Source of the DNA: Nevskia sp. | Lineage (GTDB): Bacteria > Pseudomonadota > Gammaproteobacteria > Nevskiales > Nevskiaceae | Assembly (NCBI GenBank): GCA_028291645.1 | Contig: JAQGNU010000045.1 | Coordinates: forward strand, 1 to 46,720 | Direction: 5' to 3' | Length of the DNA stretch: 46,720 bases | In this document: positions 9,457 through 44,149 of the stretch, piece after piece | Layout: each line of letters opens with the position of its first letter | Position numbering within the stretch: the first letter of the stretch is position 1 | Made by a program: the position numbers and the translations under genes | The notes under the pieces: model-generated | What the model saw: the letters and a program-made list of their open reading frames with translations, nothing else | What the model was told of the DNA's origin: nothing | Database searches by the model: none

Positions 9457-9500
9457 CTACCTTCTGAAAATAAACCTAGGTACAGACTGCAAAAGCTGAA

Positions 9501-9516
9501 TGTTCCACGTGGAACA
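9501..9516. other. parS: parS-type ParB binding site
   Basis: TGTTCCACGTGGAACA is a perfect 16-base palindrome identical to the chromosomal parS centromere core (TGTTCCACGTGGAACA, also written TGTTNCACGTGNAACA), as described in pseudomonads. It lies between dnaN and gyrB, about 3 kb from the candidate origin, which is where ParB sites cluster. parA and parB are not in this window. Confidence 0.88.
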
Positions 9517-9535
9517 TCTCGCTAGTTCGCTCGCC

Positions 9536-39930: not shown

Positions 39931-42195
39931 ATGTATCAACCGCCCGAGCTGAACCCCGACATCGCGCCGCTGATCGCCGCGCTCAATCCCGCGCAGAAGG
40001 AAGCGGTGACGGCGCCGCCGGAACACCGGCTGGTGCTCGCAGGTGCGGGATCGGGCAAGACGCGCGTGCTGGTGCATCGCATCGCCTGGCTGGTCGCGGT
40101 CGAGAACATCTCGCCGCATTCGATCCTGGCGGTGACGTTCACCAACAAGGCCGCCGCCGAAATGCGCGGCCGCATCGAGCAGCTGCTCAACGTGCCGGTG
40201 CGCACGATGTGGGTCGGCACCTTCCACGGCATCGCGCACCGCATGCTGCGGCTGCACTGGCGCGAAGCGAAACTGCCGCAGAATTTCCAGATTCTCGATG
40301 CGGACGATCAGCAGCGCCTGGTCAAGCGCATCTTGCGCAGTCTCGACATGCCGGAGGAACAGTGGCCGCCGAAGCAGGTCACTGCCTACATCAATGCGCA
40401 GAAGGACGAAGGCCGCCGGCCGCAGTCGCTGCAGGACCAAGGCGATTACGCGCAGCGCCAGCTGGTGCGTGCCTACACCGCGTATCAGGTGCAGTGCGAA
40501 AGCGCCGGCCTAGTCGATTTCGCCGAACTGCTCCTGCGTGCTTTCGAGCTGTGCCGCGACGTGCCGGAAATCCAGGCGCATTACCGTGCGCGCTTCCGCC
40601 ACATCCTGGTCGATGAGTTCCAGGACACCAACACGCTGCAATACGCCTGGCTGCGCGTGCTCGCCGGCGAGCGCGGCGTGCTGTTCGCGGTCGGCGACGA
40701 CGATCAGAGCATCTATTCCTGGCGCGGCGCCAAAGTCGAAAACATGGTGCGGCTGGCGAAAGATTTTCCCGGCACCGAGGTGATCCGGTTGGAGCAGAAC
40801 TACCGCTCGACCGGCACCATCCTGAAAGCCGCCAATGCGCTGATCGCGAAGAACAGCAGCCGTCTCGGCAAGAACCTGTGGACCGAGGACGGCGAAGGCG
40901 CGCCGATCCAGCTGTATGCCGCGTTCAACGAATACGACGAGGCCGAGTTCGTCGTCAACCGCATGCGCGAGCATCTCGATGGCCGCGCACGCTATTCGGA
41001 TCTGGCGGTGCTGTACCGCTCCAACGCGCAGTCGCGCGTGCTCGAAGAAGTGCTGATCCGGCAACGACTGCCGTACCGCATCTACGGCGGCCTGCGCTTT
41101 TTCGAACGCATGGAAGTGAAAGATGCGCTGGCCTACCTGCGGCTGGTCAGCAATCGCGACGACGACGGCAGTTTCGAGCGCACCGTCAACACGCCGGCGC
41201 GCGGCATCGGCGCCACCACGATCGAGCGTCTGCGCCAGATCGCGCGCGAAGGCGGCGTGTCGCTGTGGAAAGCCGCAGTCGGCGCCGGTCCGGCGCTCGG
41301 CCGCAGCGCCGGCAATCTGAAACAGTTCCTCGATCTGATCGAAGGCTTGGCGCGCGACACGGCCGGCGAGCCGCTATCGAAGATCATGGACCTGACCATC
41401 GAACGTTCCGGTCTGCGCGCGCATTATCAAAAAGAGAAGGGCGAGCAGGCCGAATCGCGACTGGAAAATCTCGACGAGTTGATCAACGCCAGCCGCAGTT
41501 TCGAGCGACCGCCGGAAGACGACGAACTCGACCCGCTCAATTCCTTCCTCGCGCATGCCGCGCTCGAAGCCGGCGAAGGCCAGGCGCTGGCCGGCGAAGA
41601 CAGCGTGCAGCTGATGACGCTGCACTCGGCCAAGGGCCTGGAATTTCCGATCGTGTTCATGGTGGGTGTGGAGAACGGCCTGTTCCCGAATCAGCGCGCG
41701 CTCGACGAAGGCAGCCTCGAAGAAGAGCGCCGCCTGTGTTACGTCGGCATCACCCGCGCGCGCCAGCAGCTCTATCTCAGCTATGCCGAAGTGCGACGCG
41801 TGCACGGCGTCGAGCAGATCGGCTCGCCGTCGATTTTCCTGCGCGACATTCCGCCCGAATGCGTGGTCGAAACGCGACCGCGCGCCGGCATCCTGCGGCC
41901 CAGCTTCGCCGGTGGTGCGCGCAGTTCCGGCGCTGGCTATGGCGGCGGCGGTTACAGTTCACGCGAACCGCGGCCACGCTACGGCGAGGGCTACAACTTG
42001 CAGCGCACGCCGATCACAAACGCGCCGGCCTACGGCGGCTTCAAACTCGGCGCGCAGGTACGCCATGTGAAGTTCGGCGAAGGCACCATCGTCTCGTTCG
42101 ACGGCGACGGCGAGCGCACCCAAGTCGAAGTACGTTTCCGTAACGCCGGCACCAAACGGCTGATGCTGTCGCAAGCCAAGCTCGAAGCGGTCTAG
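39931..42195 (+). CDS. uvrD: DNA helicase II (UvrD)
   Basis: UvrD is a superfamily 1A 3'-5' helicase that acts in nucleotide excision repair, mismatch repair and the removal of RecA filaments. It has Walker A 'AGAGSGKTR' at 37-45, motif Ia 'AVTFTNKAAAEM', motif II in 'HILVDEFQDTN', motif III 'FAVGDDDQSIYSWRGA', motif IV 'LEQNYRS', motif V 'TLHSAKGLEFPIVF' and motif VI in 'EEERRLCYVGITRAR'. The C-terminal tail has a Gly/Tyr-rich linker and then the RNA-polymerase-binding-like Tudor segment 'VRHVKFGEGTIVSFDGDG'. The length is 754 (E. coli 720). The start is ATG at 39931. A 42-residue gene follows after 12 bases. Confidence 0.96.
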   Translation: MYQPPELNPDIAPLIAALNPAQKEAVTAPPEHRLVLAGAGSGKTRVLVHRIAWLVAVENISPHSILAVTFTNKAAAEMRGRIEQLLNVPVRTMWVGTFHGIAHRMLRLHWREAKLPQNFQILDADDQQRLVKRILRSLDMPEEQWPPKQVTAYINAQKDEGRRPQSLQDQGDYAQRQLVRAYTAYQVQCESAGLVDFAELLLRAFELCRDVPEIQAHYRARFRHILVDEFQDTNTLQYAWLRVLAGERGVLFAVGDDDQSIYSWRGAKVENMVRLAKDFPGTEVIRLEQNYRSTGTILKAANALIAKNSSRLGKNLWTEDGEGAPIQLYAAFNEYDEAEFVVNRMREHLDGRARYSDLAVLYRSNAQSRVLEEVLIRQRLPYRIYGGLRFFERMEVKDALAYLRLVSNRDDDGSFERTVNTPARGIGATTIERLRQIAREGGVSLWKAAVGAGPALGRSAGNLKQFLDLIEGLARDTAGEPLSKIMDLTIERSGLRAHYQKEKGEQAESRLENLDELINASRSFERPPEDDELDPLNSFLAHAALEAGEGQALAGEDSVQLMTLHSAKGLEFPIVFMVGVENGLFPNQRALDEGSLEEERRLCYVGITRARQQLYLSYAEVRRVHGVEQIGSPSIFLRDIPPECVVETRPRAGILRPSFAGGARSSGAGYGGGGYSSREPRPRYGEGYNLQRTPITNAPAYGGFKLGAQVRHVKFGEGTIVSFDGDGERTQVEVRFRNAGTKRLMLSQAKLEAV

Positions 42196-42207
42196 GGAGA
42201 GCAAGCC

Positions 42208-42336
42208 ATGAACGCAGTCGAATGGGCACTGATCGTCGGCATCATCGCGATTCTGGTGGGGCCGTTTCTGGCGCTGAAGGCAGTGGCGAAATTTCGTTCG
42301 CGGCGACGTGGTGCTAGCGAACCCGATAAGAAGTAA
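42208..42336 (+). CDS. 42-residue single-pass membrane protein downstream of uvrD
   Basis: This short gene encodes MNAVEWALIVGIIAILVGP and then a basic tail (KAVAKFRSRRRGASEPDKK). One hydrophobic helix (about residues 5-24) is followed by positive residues, which predicts the N-terminus outside and the tail inside. The ATG at 42208 has a strong AGGGAG ribosome-binding site (42194-42199) that overlaps the uvrD stop codon, so translation is probably coupled. Gammaproteobacteria often have small DUF2897-type membrane proteins of this shape; membership is possible but not proven. The function is unknown. It is the last core gene before the restriction-modification module. Confidence 0.65.
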   Translation: MNAVEWALIVGIIAILVGPFLALKAVAKFRSRRRGASEPDKK

Positions 42337-42345
42337 TCGCGAATG

Positions 42346-42374
42346 ATGACAAAAGACGTCTAGACGTCTATAGT
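42346..42374 (+). promoter_or_regulatory. Sigma70-type promoter of the methyltransferase gene
   Basis: ATGACA (42346-42351) and TATAGT (42369-42374) match the -35 and -10 consensus (5/6 each) with an ideal 17-base spacer. The predicted transcript start near 42381 is only about 10 bases before the first ATG (42391), so the message has a very short leader with no ribosome-binding site. The spacer is filled by a palindrome. Confidence 0.7.
42354..42369. promoter_or_regulatory. 16-bp palindromic operator inside the methyltransferase promoter
   Basis: AGACGTCTAGACGTCT is a perfect inverted repeat that also reads as two AGACGTCT half-units, each containing GACGTC. It sits in the spacer and touches the -10 element, so any protein bound here should block the promoter. 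The candidate binder is the methyltransferase's own N-terminal domain. Methylation at the embedded sites is the other possible control. Confidence 0.65.
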
Positions 42375-42390
42375 CCATGCGTTCGTCCGC

Positions 42391-43545
42391 ATGGCATCTC
42401 TCATGAAGCGCAGACCAGGTGAAGTTCGGGATGCAATAGTCTCAATTCTGGATAGCCGTCCGGCGGGTGCCTCAGTTGCAGAAATTGCGGCCGGCGTGAC
42501 TGAGTTGATCGGTGCGACCCCGCAATCTTCGGTCCGCTCGTACCTGCGGTTAAACACTCCCGAAGCATTTCTGCGCAGCGAGCGTGGTCGATATCAATTG
42601 AATGAGACGGTTCCGGCCGAATATGCGCGAACGCGCTCAGCGAAAGTCGCACCAGAGACTTTCTCTTACAACGAAGCCACGCTCCACTGCGCGGATTGTT
42701 TGATGTGGCTAAAGGATCAGGAGGCCAACTCGATTCACGCGGTGGTGACCGATCCGCCTTATGGATTGATTGAGTATTCCGAAGGCGAGCAGCACAAACT
42801 GCGTAGCGGCAAAGGCGGAGTCTGGCGTATCCCGCCGTCGTTCGACGGGAGTCGGCGCGCGCCACTCCCTCGGTTTACCGTGTTGTCGAAAAGTGACATT
42901 GAGGCGCTCTACGAATTCTTTCTTAACTGGGGTAAGGCGCTATCGCCTGTCTTGGTTCCGGGCGCCAACCTGATCGTCGCCAGCAACCCGCTGCTGTCCT
43001 ACGTGGTATCCAGTGCTCTGGCCCGCGCTGGTCTGGAGCGACGCGGCGAAATCGTTCGCTTGGTAATGACGATGCGCGGTGGCGATCGGCCGAAAGCGGC
43101 GCATGAAGAGTTCGAAGGCGTCAGCGTGATGCCGCGTTCGATGTGGGAGCCCTGGCTGGTTTTCCGCAAACCGATTGAAGGTCGCGTGCAGGACAACTTG
43201 CGTAAATGGAAAACCGGCGGGTTTCGGCGCCCTTCGTCGGCGCGACCCTTTGGTGACGTGATCGCGTCTGCACCGACGCATAAAGCCGAGCGGAGTCTTG
43301 CACCTCATCCAAGCCTCAAACCGCAGGCATTTCTGCGGGAGCTGGTGCGTGCATGTCTGCCGCTCGGCGAAGGGCTCGTTTTGGACCCGTTCGCAGGTTC
43401 CGGCTCGACTTTGGCTGCTGCTGTGGCCGTGGGCTATTCAAGTATCGGACTGGAGAAAGATGCCGCGTATTTCTCGATGGCGAAAGAAGCGATTCCTAAG
43501 TTATCAAGATACCGCCGCGAGCCCAGTTATGGCTTGAGTTTGTAA
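42391..43545 (+). CDS. Type II DNA methyltransferase, beta class (N6-adenine or N4-cytosine)
   Basis: This is the modification enzyme of a type II system. Motif IV 'TDPPYGLI' (DPPY at 121-124) comes before motif I 'DPFAGSG' at 332-338, which defines the beta class; the target recognition region lies between. Residues of about 1-75 form a winged-helix-like DNA-binding region ('GEVRDAIVSILDSRPAGASVAEIAAGV', then 'SSVRSYLRLN' and 'GRYQLNE'), not needed for catalysis and possibly regulatory. The start is ATG at 42391, with ATG at 42403 as the alternative; neither has a ribosome-binding site. Length 384. Codon use and GC look lower than in flanking genes, suggesting transfer. It overlaps the endonuclease gene tail to tail by 19 bases. 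The recognition sequence is unknown. Confidence 0.92.
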   Translation: MASLMKRRPGEVRDAIVSILDSRPAGASVAEIAAGVTELIGATPQSSVRSYLRLNTPEAFLRSERGRYQLNETVPAEYARTRSAKVAPETFSYNEATLHCADCLMWLKDQEANSIHAVVTDPPYGLIEYSEGEQHKLRSGKGGVWRIPPSFDGSRRAPLPRFTVLSKSDIEALYEFFLNWGKALSPVLVPGANLIVASNPLLSYVVSSALARAGLERRGEIVRLVMTMRGGDRPKAAHEEFEGVSVMPRSMWEPWLVFRKPIEGRVQDNLRKWKTGGFRRPSSARPFGDVIASAPTHKAERSLAPHPSLKPQAFLRELVRACLPLGEGLVLDPFAGSGSTLAAAVAVGYSSIGLEKDAAYFSMAKEAIPKLSRYRREPSYGLSL

Positions 43546-44135
43546 ATCCAGCTGCGCCGGAGTTTTTCAATTCCCTTGCGATCCAAGGTCGCCGTACGAG
43601 TTCCAAGCTCGCCACGCTCATTGCGGCGAAAGTCGTCTTTCGTAACGTGCCCCAAATAAACCTCGGTGAAGATCATTGGCGATCGTTCAGACGTCGGTTC
43701 GGTCAAATTGTCCAGCGTATACACAAACACACACATCCATTGATTGCGCGCACCGTGAGTGTCGACGGCGCCGCCTGTCTTTCGTGTGGTCTTGATCTCG
43801 ACTCCTTCTTCACCGGCCTTTGCAGAATTCTTGCTGTAGACCCCGTTTACGACGAGGTCAGGGTGGCCATTGAAATAGGTGTTTACGCGGAGCGCACGCG
43901 AATGCTTTGCAAGCGATGCAGTCAGCATGTCGGATAGCAGACCCGACATGATCGCCGGGCGCAGTAAATCATCCAGACGATCTAAGCCACGGCGGATCAG
44001 TTCGCGGTTGACGTCGGTAAAAAAATCGTAGGCATCCTGCATCGCAAGCTCGAAGTCTTTTAAGCGCAACTCGAATGGCAGCTCAGCTTCAAGATTGAAC
44101 AATTGAGGATCAACGACGTGTCGAATCGATTTCAT
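43527..44135 (-). CDS. Probable type II restriction endonuclease (PD-(D/E)xK)
   Basis: I do not recognise the exact family, but the 202 residues hold a PD-(D/E)xK nuclease motif: Pro92-Asp93 in 'NGHPDLVVNGVY' and Glu113-x-Lys115 in 'GVEIKTTRK', spaced 19 residues apart as in restriction enzymes. The N-terminus is helical ('FELRLKDFELAMQDAYDFFTDVNREL'). There is no methyltransferase or helicase domain. The ATG at 44135 has a GGAG ribosome-binding site about 7 bases upstream. The gene starts 14 bases after the stop of the SPOR-domain gene on the same strand, without a visible promoter between, so it is probably transcribed from the argS operon. It converges on the methyltransferase gene with a 19-base overlap, which supports a restriction-modification pair. 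Confidence 0.85.
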   Translation of the reverse strand: MKSIRHVVDPQLFNLEAELPFELRLKDFELAMQDAYDFFTDVNRELIRRGLDRLDDLLRPAIMSGLLSDMLTASLAKHSRALRVNTYFNGHPDLVVNGVYSKNSAKAGEEGVEIKTTRKTGGAVDTHGARNQWMCVFVYTLDNLTEPTSERSPMIFTEVYLGHVTKDDFRRNERGELGTRTATLDRKGIEKLRRSWIYKLKP

Positions 44136-44149
44136 CGGTTGCTCCGAAA

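Follow-up and report, generated by a model that had tools for sequence, protein, structure and literature searches.

The palindrome that fills the promoter of a DNA methyltransferase gene in a 46,720-nt stretch of Nevskia sp. DNA (the window) very likely serves as operator in a type II restriction-modification system that regulates itself, and as the binding site of the methyltransferase's own winged helix. For this best explanation, we infer the binding, the repression, the stoichiometry, and the dosage purpose. The features concerned are collected in Table 1.

Table 1. Positions in the window of the promoter elements, the candidate operator, and the two genes of the system
Feature	Coordinates	Strand	Basis
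-35 element ATGACA, methyltransferase promoter	42346..42351	+	sequence; consensus scan, 10/12 jointly with -10
-10 element TATAGT	42369..42374	+	sequence; consensus scan
16-bp palindrome AGACGTCTAGACGTCT, candidate operator with one flanking A/T per side	42354..42369	.	sequence
Conserved operator core GACGTC-TA-GACGTC, 14 bp	42355..42368	.	12 fixed positions identical in 93 loci
Winged-helix domain, ~aa 6-72, proposed operator-binding part	42406..42606	+	predicted fold, profile matches
Beta-class DNA methyltransferase, 384 aa, PF01555, proposed autorepressor	42391..43545	+	
Convergent putative restriction endonuclease, 202 aa, P92 D93 ... E113-x-K115	43527..44135	-	

The palindrome, its promoter, and the two genes

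Re-reading of the positions confirmed the arrangement described in the earlier note, that is, ATGACA, 17 bases (42352-42368), and TATAGT, with AGACGTCTAGACGTCT running from base 3 of the spacer to base 1 of the -10 element. A promoter scan returned this pair as the sole sigma-70-like site of 42150-42600 (10/12 matches; shuffles, 0.3). The exact 16-mer was present as a single copy genome-wide, and when up to 3 mismatches were allowed, it had 1 match in the window versus a shuffle mean of 0.10. The window contains six perfect palindromes of at least 16 bp, one of which is 18 bp long. The bare length of the palindrome is unremarkable in the window; it is conservation that sets AGACGTCTAGACGTCT beyond chance. 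The conserved element is the 14-bp core; its two central bases varied among the loci compared, as did the A/T on either side of it. A perfect 7-bp inverted repeat, CCATGCG-N6-CGCATGG (42375-42394), lies just past the -10 element and spans the methyltransferase start codon. The longest perfect palindrome of the window, ATGTTCCACGTGGAACAT (9500-9517), resembles a parS centromere site.

The methyltransferase matched PF01555 (E 5.6e-18) and PADLOC MTase_II (E 4.5e-109). In beta-class enzymes, the DPPY motif (IV) stands ahead of the FxGxG motif (I) in the chain. The same order was found in the window protein (P0001), where DPPYG (motif IV, residues 121-125) precedes FAGSGS (motif I, residues 334-339), and the beta class assigned previously thus holds. 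No C5-cytosine methyltransferase family was present among the listed family matches of this protein, and PF01555 is an N6/N4 family.

The region preceding the catalytic motifs had been called winged-helix-like, and the structural model gave a confident winged helix there, with three helices and a two-strand wing (pLDDT 93-96 as 10-residue block means over residues 11-70). Alignments of 76 and 69 relatives placed a nearly invariant SSxRSYLxLN motif on the third helix, in the position of a recognition helix. The methyltransferase therefore carries a fused N-terminal domain that is predicted from this model to bind DNA. Winged-helix fold matches in the PDB were generic (Rok, TtgV, Fur), with none at E <= 0.001, and a sequence search for solved relatives of the domain gave nothing firm. 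Matches of the domain to curated repressor families were weak and scattered. The HARE-HTH family (PF05066) did not match the window domain and matched 7 of 76 members weakly (best E 0.0018). Among 398 genomes of the phylum, the winged-helix profile matched two, both on this methyltransferase family, and no winged helix of this kind was found outside the family.

The neighboring gene is convergent with the methyltransferase gene and overlaps its end. The 202-residue product had no Pfam, NCBIfam, or convincing PDB sequence match. Its residues P92-D93 ... E113-x-K115 (PD...ExK) were invariant among its relatives, and its predicted fold (mean pLDDT 90) best matched EcoRV and NaeI, although weakly (best E 2.3e-3). 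Within the pair, this protein very probably acts as the endonuclease. A convergent member of the same family was found in 72 of the best 80 of 534 genome-contig loci (14 of these 72 being partial matches), and 8 of the 80 had no match. Judged by sequence, the pair in the window is a type II restriction-modification system with predicted cleavage activity. In 14 of the 80 genome-contig loci (L029, L042, L063, L066, L095, and others), the endonuclease was found only partly in one frame, as if it were decaying while the methyltransferase and the operator persist. The G+C content of the pair (42340-44140) is 0.56, and that of the endonuclease is 0.52, compared to 0.62 for the window. This is in keeping with acquisition of the pair between a helicase gene and a SPOR-like/ArgS pair (genes named by eye).

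Occurrence of the site with and without the winged helix

Bacterial and archaeal contigs of one genome collection were scanned with two patterns that covered the catalytic domain only. The best 80 of the 534 methyltransferase relatives were examined, which biases this set toward full-length, near relatives of the window gene. All of these 80 relatives carried the winged helix, and all 80 had a perfect GACGTCNNGACGTC within 300 bp upstream. Of 2175 control windows taken from the 94 loci of this upstream comparison, 0 came within one mismatch of GACGTCNNGACGTC.

Among the 94 distinct winged-helix loci, window included, GACGTC-N2-GACGTC was perfect in 93. The comparison of promoters at homologous loci suggested in the earlier note thus found the core of the palindrome conserved. 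In the logo of the 93 loci, which was anchored on the operator match itself and included no winged-helix locus without a match, the 12 fixed positions were identical, and positions outside the promoter carried 0-0.2 bits. The middle two bases were pyrimidine-purine in 81 of the 93 loci, and the flanks were A/T-rich. The two GACGTC units were spaced by 2 bp in 94 neighboring pairs, and every other spacing occurred at most once. In a plasmid sample (ten regions out of 184 plasmid records with a match), GACGTC-NN-GACGTC stood upstream of every domain-bearing region. According to the tree labels and plasmid records, the carriers cover about eleven phyla, as well as plasmids and phage contigs. The phylum labels, taken as given and in many cases belonging to metagenome bins, are Pseudomonadota, Nitrospirota, Acidobacteriota, Myxococcota, Verrucomicrobiota, Gemmatimonadota, Chloroflexota, Planctomycetota, Hydrogenedentota, Methylomirabilota, and Actinomycetota.

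The one exception was L248, which was recovered when 398 genomes of the phylum were searched for the winged helix and has both this domain and the methyltransferase. One of its GACGTC units is intact and the other has three mismatches, and the site lies between -35- and -10-like hexamers. The endonuclease was not detected in L248, where the locus ends ~0.6 kb past the methyltransferase gene. Genomes were also drawn without selection by similarity (369 of the class, 398 of the phylum, and 85, 2, and 197 of three orders). The winged-helix carriers in these draws were G000, G085, G174, and G398, and three of these four, the genome of the window included, had a perfect site. Scans of viral sequences with two longer patterns gave 28 and 97 stretches, of which three contained the winged helix (L154, L173, and L246). 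L154 and L173 lie on contigs that had already been found by protein, and the match of L246 scores the same as that of L017. A GACGTC pair was also observed on a viral contig (L227:422-435), ~110 bp past a stretch weakly similar to the C-terminal part of the methyltransferase. The enterobacterial plasmid version had no megablast match in E. coli genomes.

Relatives that lack the winged helix had GACGTC-N2-GACGTC in 0 of 18 cases (L005, L006, L016, 14 viral loci, and L273), with two of the viral loci, L120 and L121, being short, distant, look-alike matches. In L020 and L022 (copies L107 and L110), which have no site, the endonuclease is 68% and 70% and the methyltransferase 58% and 62% identical to that of the window, respectively. 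L111 has two GACGTC within 400 nt in another arrangement. When the class genomes were searched for the pattern, G141 and G303, two carriers without the winged helix, yielded none genome-wide. L273, from the genus of the window itself, contains a winged-helix-less relative of the methyltransferase; the operator is absent, and the endonuclease was not detected. A helix-turn-helix regulator, perhaps a classical controller protein, is located near the winged-helix-less genes of L006 and L016 (recognized by eye in L006 and annotated in L016).

In a tree of 111 catalytic domains, which includes some identical rows and some flagged long branches, the winged helix and the operator changed together once (support 92/92). 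The association therefore reflects one event followed by deep conservation, and not repeated co-gain. FastTree with 28 rows placed L248 among the winged-helix loci and L273 with L005.

The probable reader of the site and alternative explanations

The perfect site was retained in six loci where no endonuclease was detected within ~4 kb of downstream DNA, which makes the endonuclease dispensable for the site. As the catalytic domain without a winged helix is not accompanied by the site, the winged helix is left as the candidate binder. Moreover, the system moves between phyla on plasmids and phages, so its regulator should be encoded by the system itself. From these comparisons, the palindrome is most likely the operator of the winged helix, through which the methyltransferase would repress itself; both binding and repression are deduced from sequence. 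The repressor operator proposed before, with the N-terminal winged helix as its suggested reader, gains support from the presence of the site in 93/94 loci with the domain and 0/18 without it, and from its position over the promoter.

GACGTC is a classical 6-bp restriction site, and the earlier note had considered that methylation of the GACGTC units could tune the promoter. In such a system, these units would be its own recognition sites, their methylation would weaken the promoter as in CfrBI, AhdI, and LlaDII, and the winged helix would have some other role. Control by promoter methylation is a known type (available parts of PMC12707154 and PMC3874152), and methylation of GACGTC is reported for two haloarchaea in the available parts of PMC11556058 and PMC12160562. 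GACGTC was also somewhat under-represented near carriers (146 seen versus 187.5 expected). However, this under-representation ranks only 21st of 64 palindromes, and a similar deficit was observed near winged-helix-less relatives (19 seen versus 29.6 expected). No palindrome clearly stood out as the recognition sequence when site avoidance was analyzed in the pooled 441 kb flanking 80 carriers. L020 and L022, whose endonucleases and methyltransferases are similar enough for the specificity to be probably the same, nevertheless lack the site, and the fixed 2-bp spacing would be unneeded for methylation control. These two observations disfavor tuning by methylation, which we regard as improbable. 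The two ideas could also be combined, with the winged helix reading GACGTC in a methylation-dependent manner, so that binding at the operator would be tuned by whether the site carries the mark set by the enzyme. Some winged helices, those of DpnI and its relatives, do sense adenine methylation (PMC11037411, available part), but nothing in the data requires such reading here, and this combination likewise appears improbable. A broader proposal would make the winged-helix controller, whether stand-alone or fused to a beta-class methyltransferase, a separate and widespread lineage of restriction-modification control in which GACGTC reading is coupled to the system's own methylation. We consider this quite unlikely. 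If true, a methylation-coupled controller, with a single operator word that hardly differs between about eleven phyla, would let the enzyme gauge the work it has completed in addition to how much of it is present.

Any promoter palindrome could in principle be bound by a transcription factor of the host that has no link to the system. Against this stands the finding that the site is the same across about eleven phyla and also on plasmids and phage contigs, as a mobile system would have to bring its regulator along. In addition, the pattern was found in only 23 of the 369 class genomes, and its reversed control in more (by eye, among the matches listed); the pattern being rarer than its control, nothing points to a regulon of the host. 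A host factor is thus extremely improbable. The pattern was also considered as a genome-wide regulon and rejected. Among the 23 pattern loci retrieved (L249-L271), only L258 (G174) and L260 (G085) have the winged helix, the window being the third such case.

Proposed control and its relation to known systems

A sigma-70-like pair (at least 9/12) was found near the site in 55 of the 93 loci, compared to 1.1% of random segments. In 53 loci, the whole operator was located inside the span from the -35 start to the -10 end. The -35 element starts 8-10 bases before the operator in 43 loci (9 in the window) and 2 bases before it in 10 loci. A protein bound at this position should collide with RNA polymerase, and repression would therefore be the natural outcome. 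Activation is possible at the remaining 38 of the 93 loci, since no sigma-70-like pair was recognized there. The promoter of the endonuclease gene was tried as a second operator target and rejected. Among the 58 regions upstream of endonuclease genes in L024-L103, none had the pair and 3 had a single GACGTC, so the control seems to be methyltransferase-only.

We propose that the N-terminal winged helix of the methyltransferase recognizes GACGTC-N2-GACGTC as a symmetric site, on which two methyltransferase subunits would probably be brought together on the operator DNA. With the site between and against the -35 and -10 elements, the bound methyltransferase would exclude RNA polymerase. Upon entry of the system into a new cell, the promoter would be free and the methyltransferase would be made fast, until the accumulating protein shuts its own gene. 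Methylation might in this way be held at a level that protects the host and not incoming phage. The endonuclease, transcribed convergently from its own promoter without the site, would be left out of this switch, which would act on the methyltransferase alone.

The logic of autorepression is known from C5 methyltransferases (SsoII, Ecl18kI, EcoRII); the enzyme class, the DNA-binding fold, and the operator differ. In M.SsoII and M.Ecl18kI, an N-terminal helix-turn-helix region of ~70 residues binds a 15-bp quasi-palindrome in the promoter and lowers the enzyme's own expression (PMC3978073, available part). The window system resembles them in the fusion of an N-terminal DNA-binding region to the methyltransferase and in the palindromic site in its own promoter. 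In contrast, M.SsoII and M.Ecl18kI are C5-cytosine enzymes with a C-protein-like HTH and the operator AGGACAAATTGTCCT, whereas here a beta-class amino-methyltransferase with a winged helix is paired with GACGTC-N2-GACGTC. Furthermore, repression of their methyltransferase gene stimulates the endonuclease gene, while the genes in the window are convergent. The promoter competition described for SsoII and Ecl18kI in the available parts of PMC3978073 and PMC12707154 is thus unlike the methyltransferase-only control proposed here. M.EcoRII, M.MspI, M.ScrFIA, and M1.LlaJI, all C5-DNA methyltransferases, repress their own genes and leave the endonuclease gene unaffected, as far as the available part of PMC3978073 states. 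The control in the window seems to be methyltransferase-only like theirs, but the enzyme is of the beta class. In CfrBI, AhdI, and LlaDII, the methyltransferase promoter is likewise the control point, but it is controlled by methylation of a promoter site with no fused domain (PMC12707154, available part). A conserved site of short 6-bp palindromes repeated over the -10 element of a defense promoter is described for RptR of a type I restriction-modification defense island. Unlike the window system, RptR is a separate alpha-helical repressor of a type I system and reads TAGCTA in 9-bp direct repeats (both from the available part of PMC12255303).

In the literature searched, with REBASE and most subscription papers outside the search, no beta-class methyltransferase with a fused winged-helix autorepressor was found, and GACGTCTAGACGTC occurred in one paper, on a plant factor (available part). 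The system in the window would extend fused-repressor control from C5 methyltransferases to the N4/N6 class. It also provides many natural examples of a single regulator-operator pair, with an almost unchanging operator and a variable protein. These open the winged-helix DNA-recognition code, the step between split and fused forms, and the purpose of autorepression by the methyltransferase to direct tests, and the operator offers a simple tag by which such systems can be annotated from sequence.

The claim that there is no separate C protein applies to the window, but not to three actinobacterial plasmids (L007, L008, and L015). In these, a small ORF of its own, just upstream of the methyltransferase, encodes the winged helix, and the site precedes this ORF. 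The small ORF is missing from the incomplete gene table of these loci. Those C proteins whose structures have been solved belong to the Xre family of HTH proteins (PMC3978073, available part), and C proteins act by positive feedback and later repression (PMC12707154, available part). The split actinobacterial form resembles C.AhdI, C.Esp1396I, and C.Csp231I, which are small system-encoded DNA-binding proteins, in gene order. It is unlike the C proteins in that the domain is a winged helix and the site stands before the methyltransferase (or the split winged helix) and not before the endonuclease. A further arrangement was observed on a Microvirga plasmid (L009), where the endonuclease was not detected. 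This plasmid has a second winged-helix ORF (1593-1964), which is stand-alone and divergent from the fused methyltransferase, and the operator is located at the start of both ORFs, between the two coding domains.
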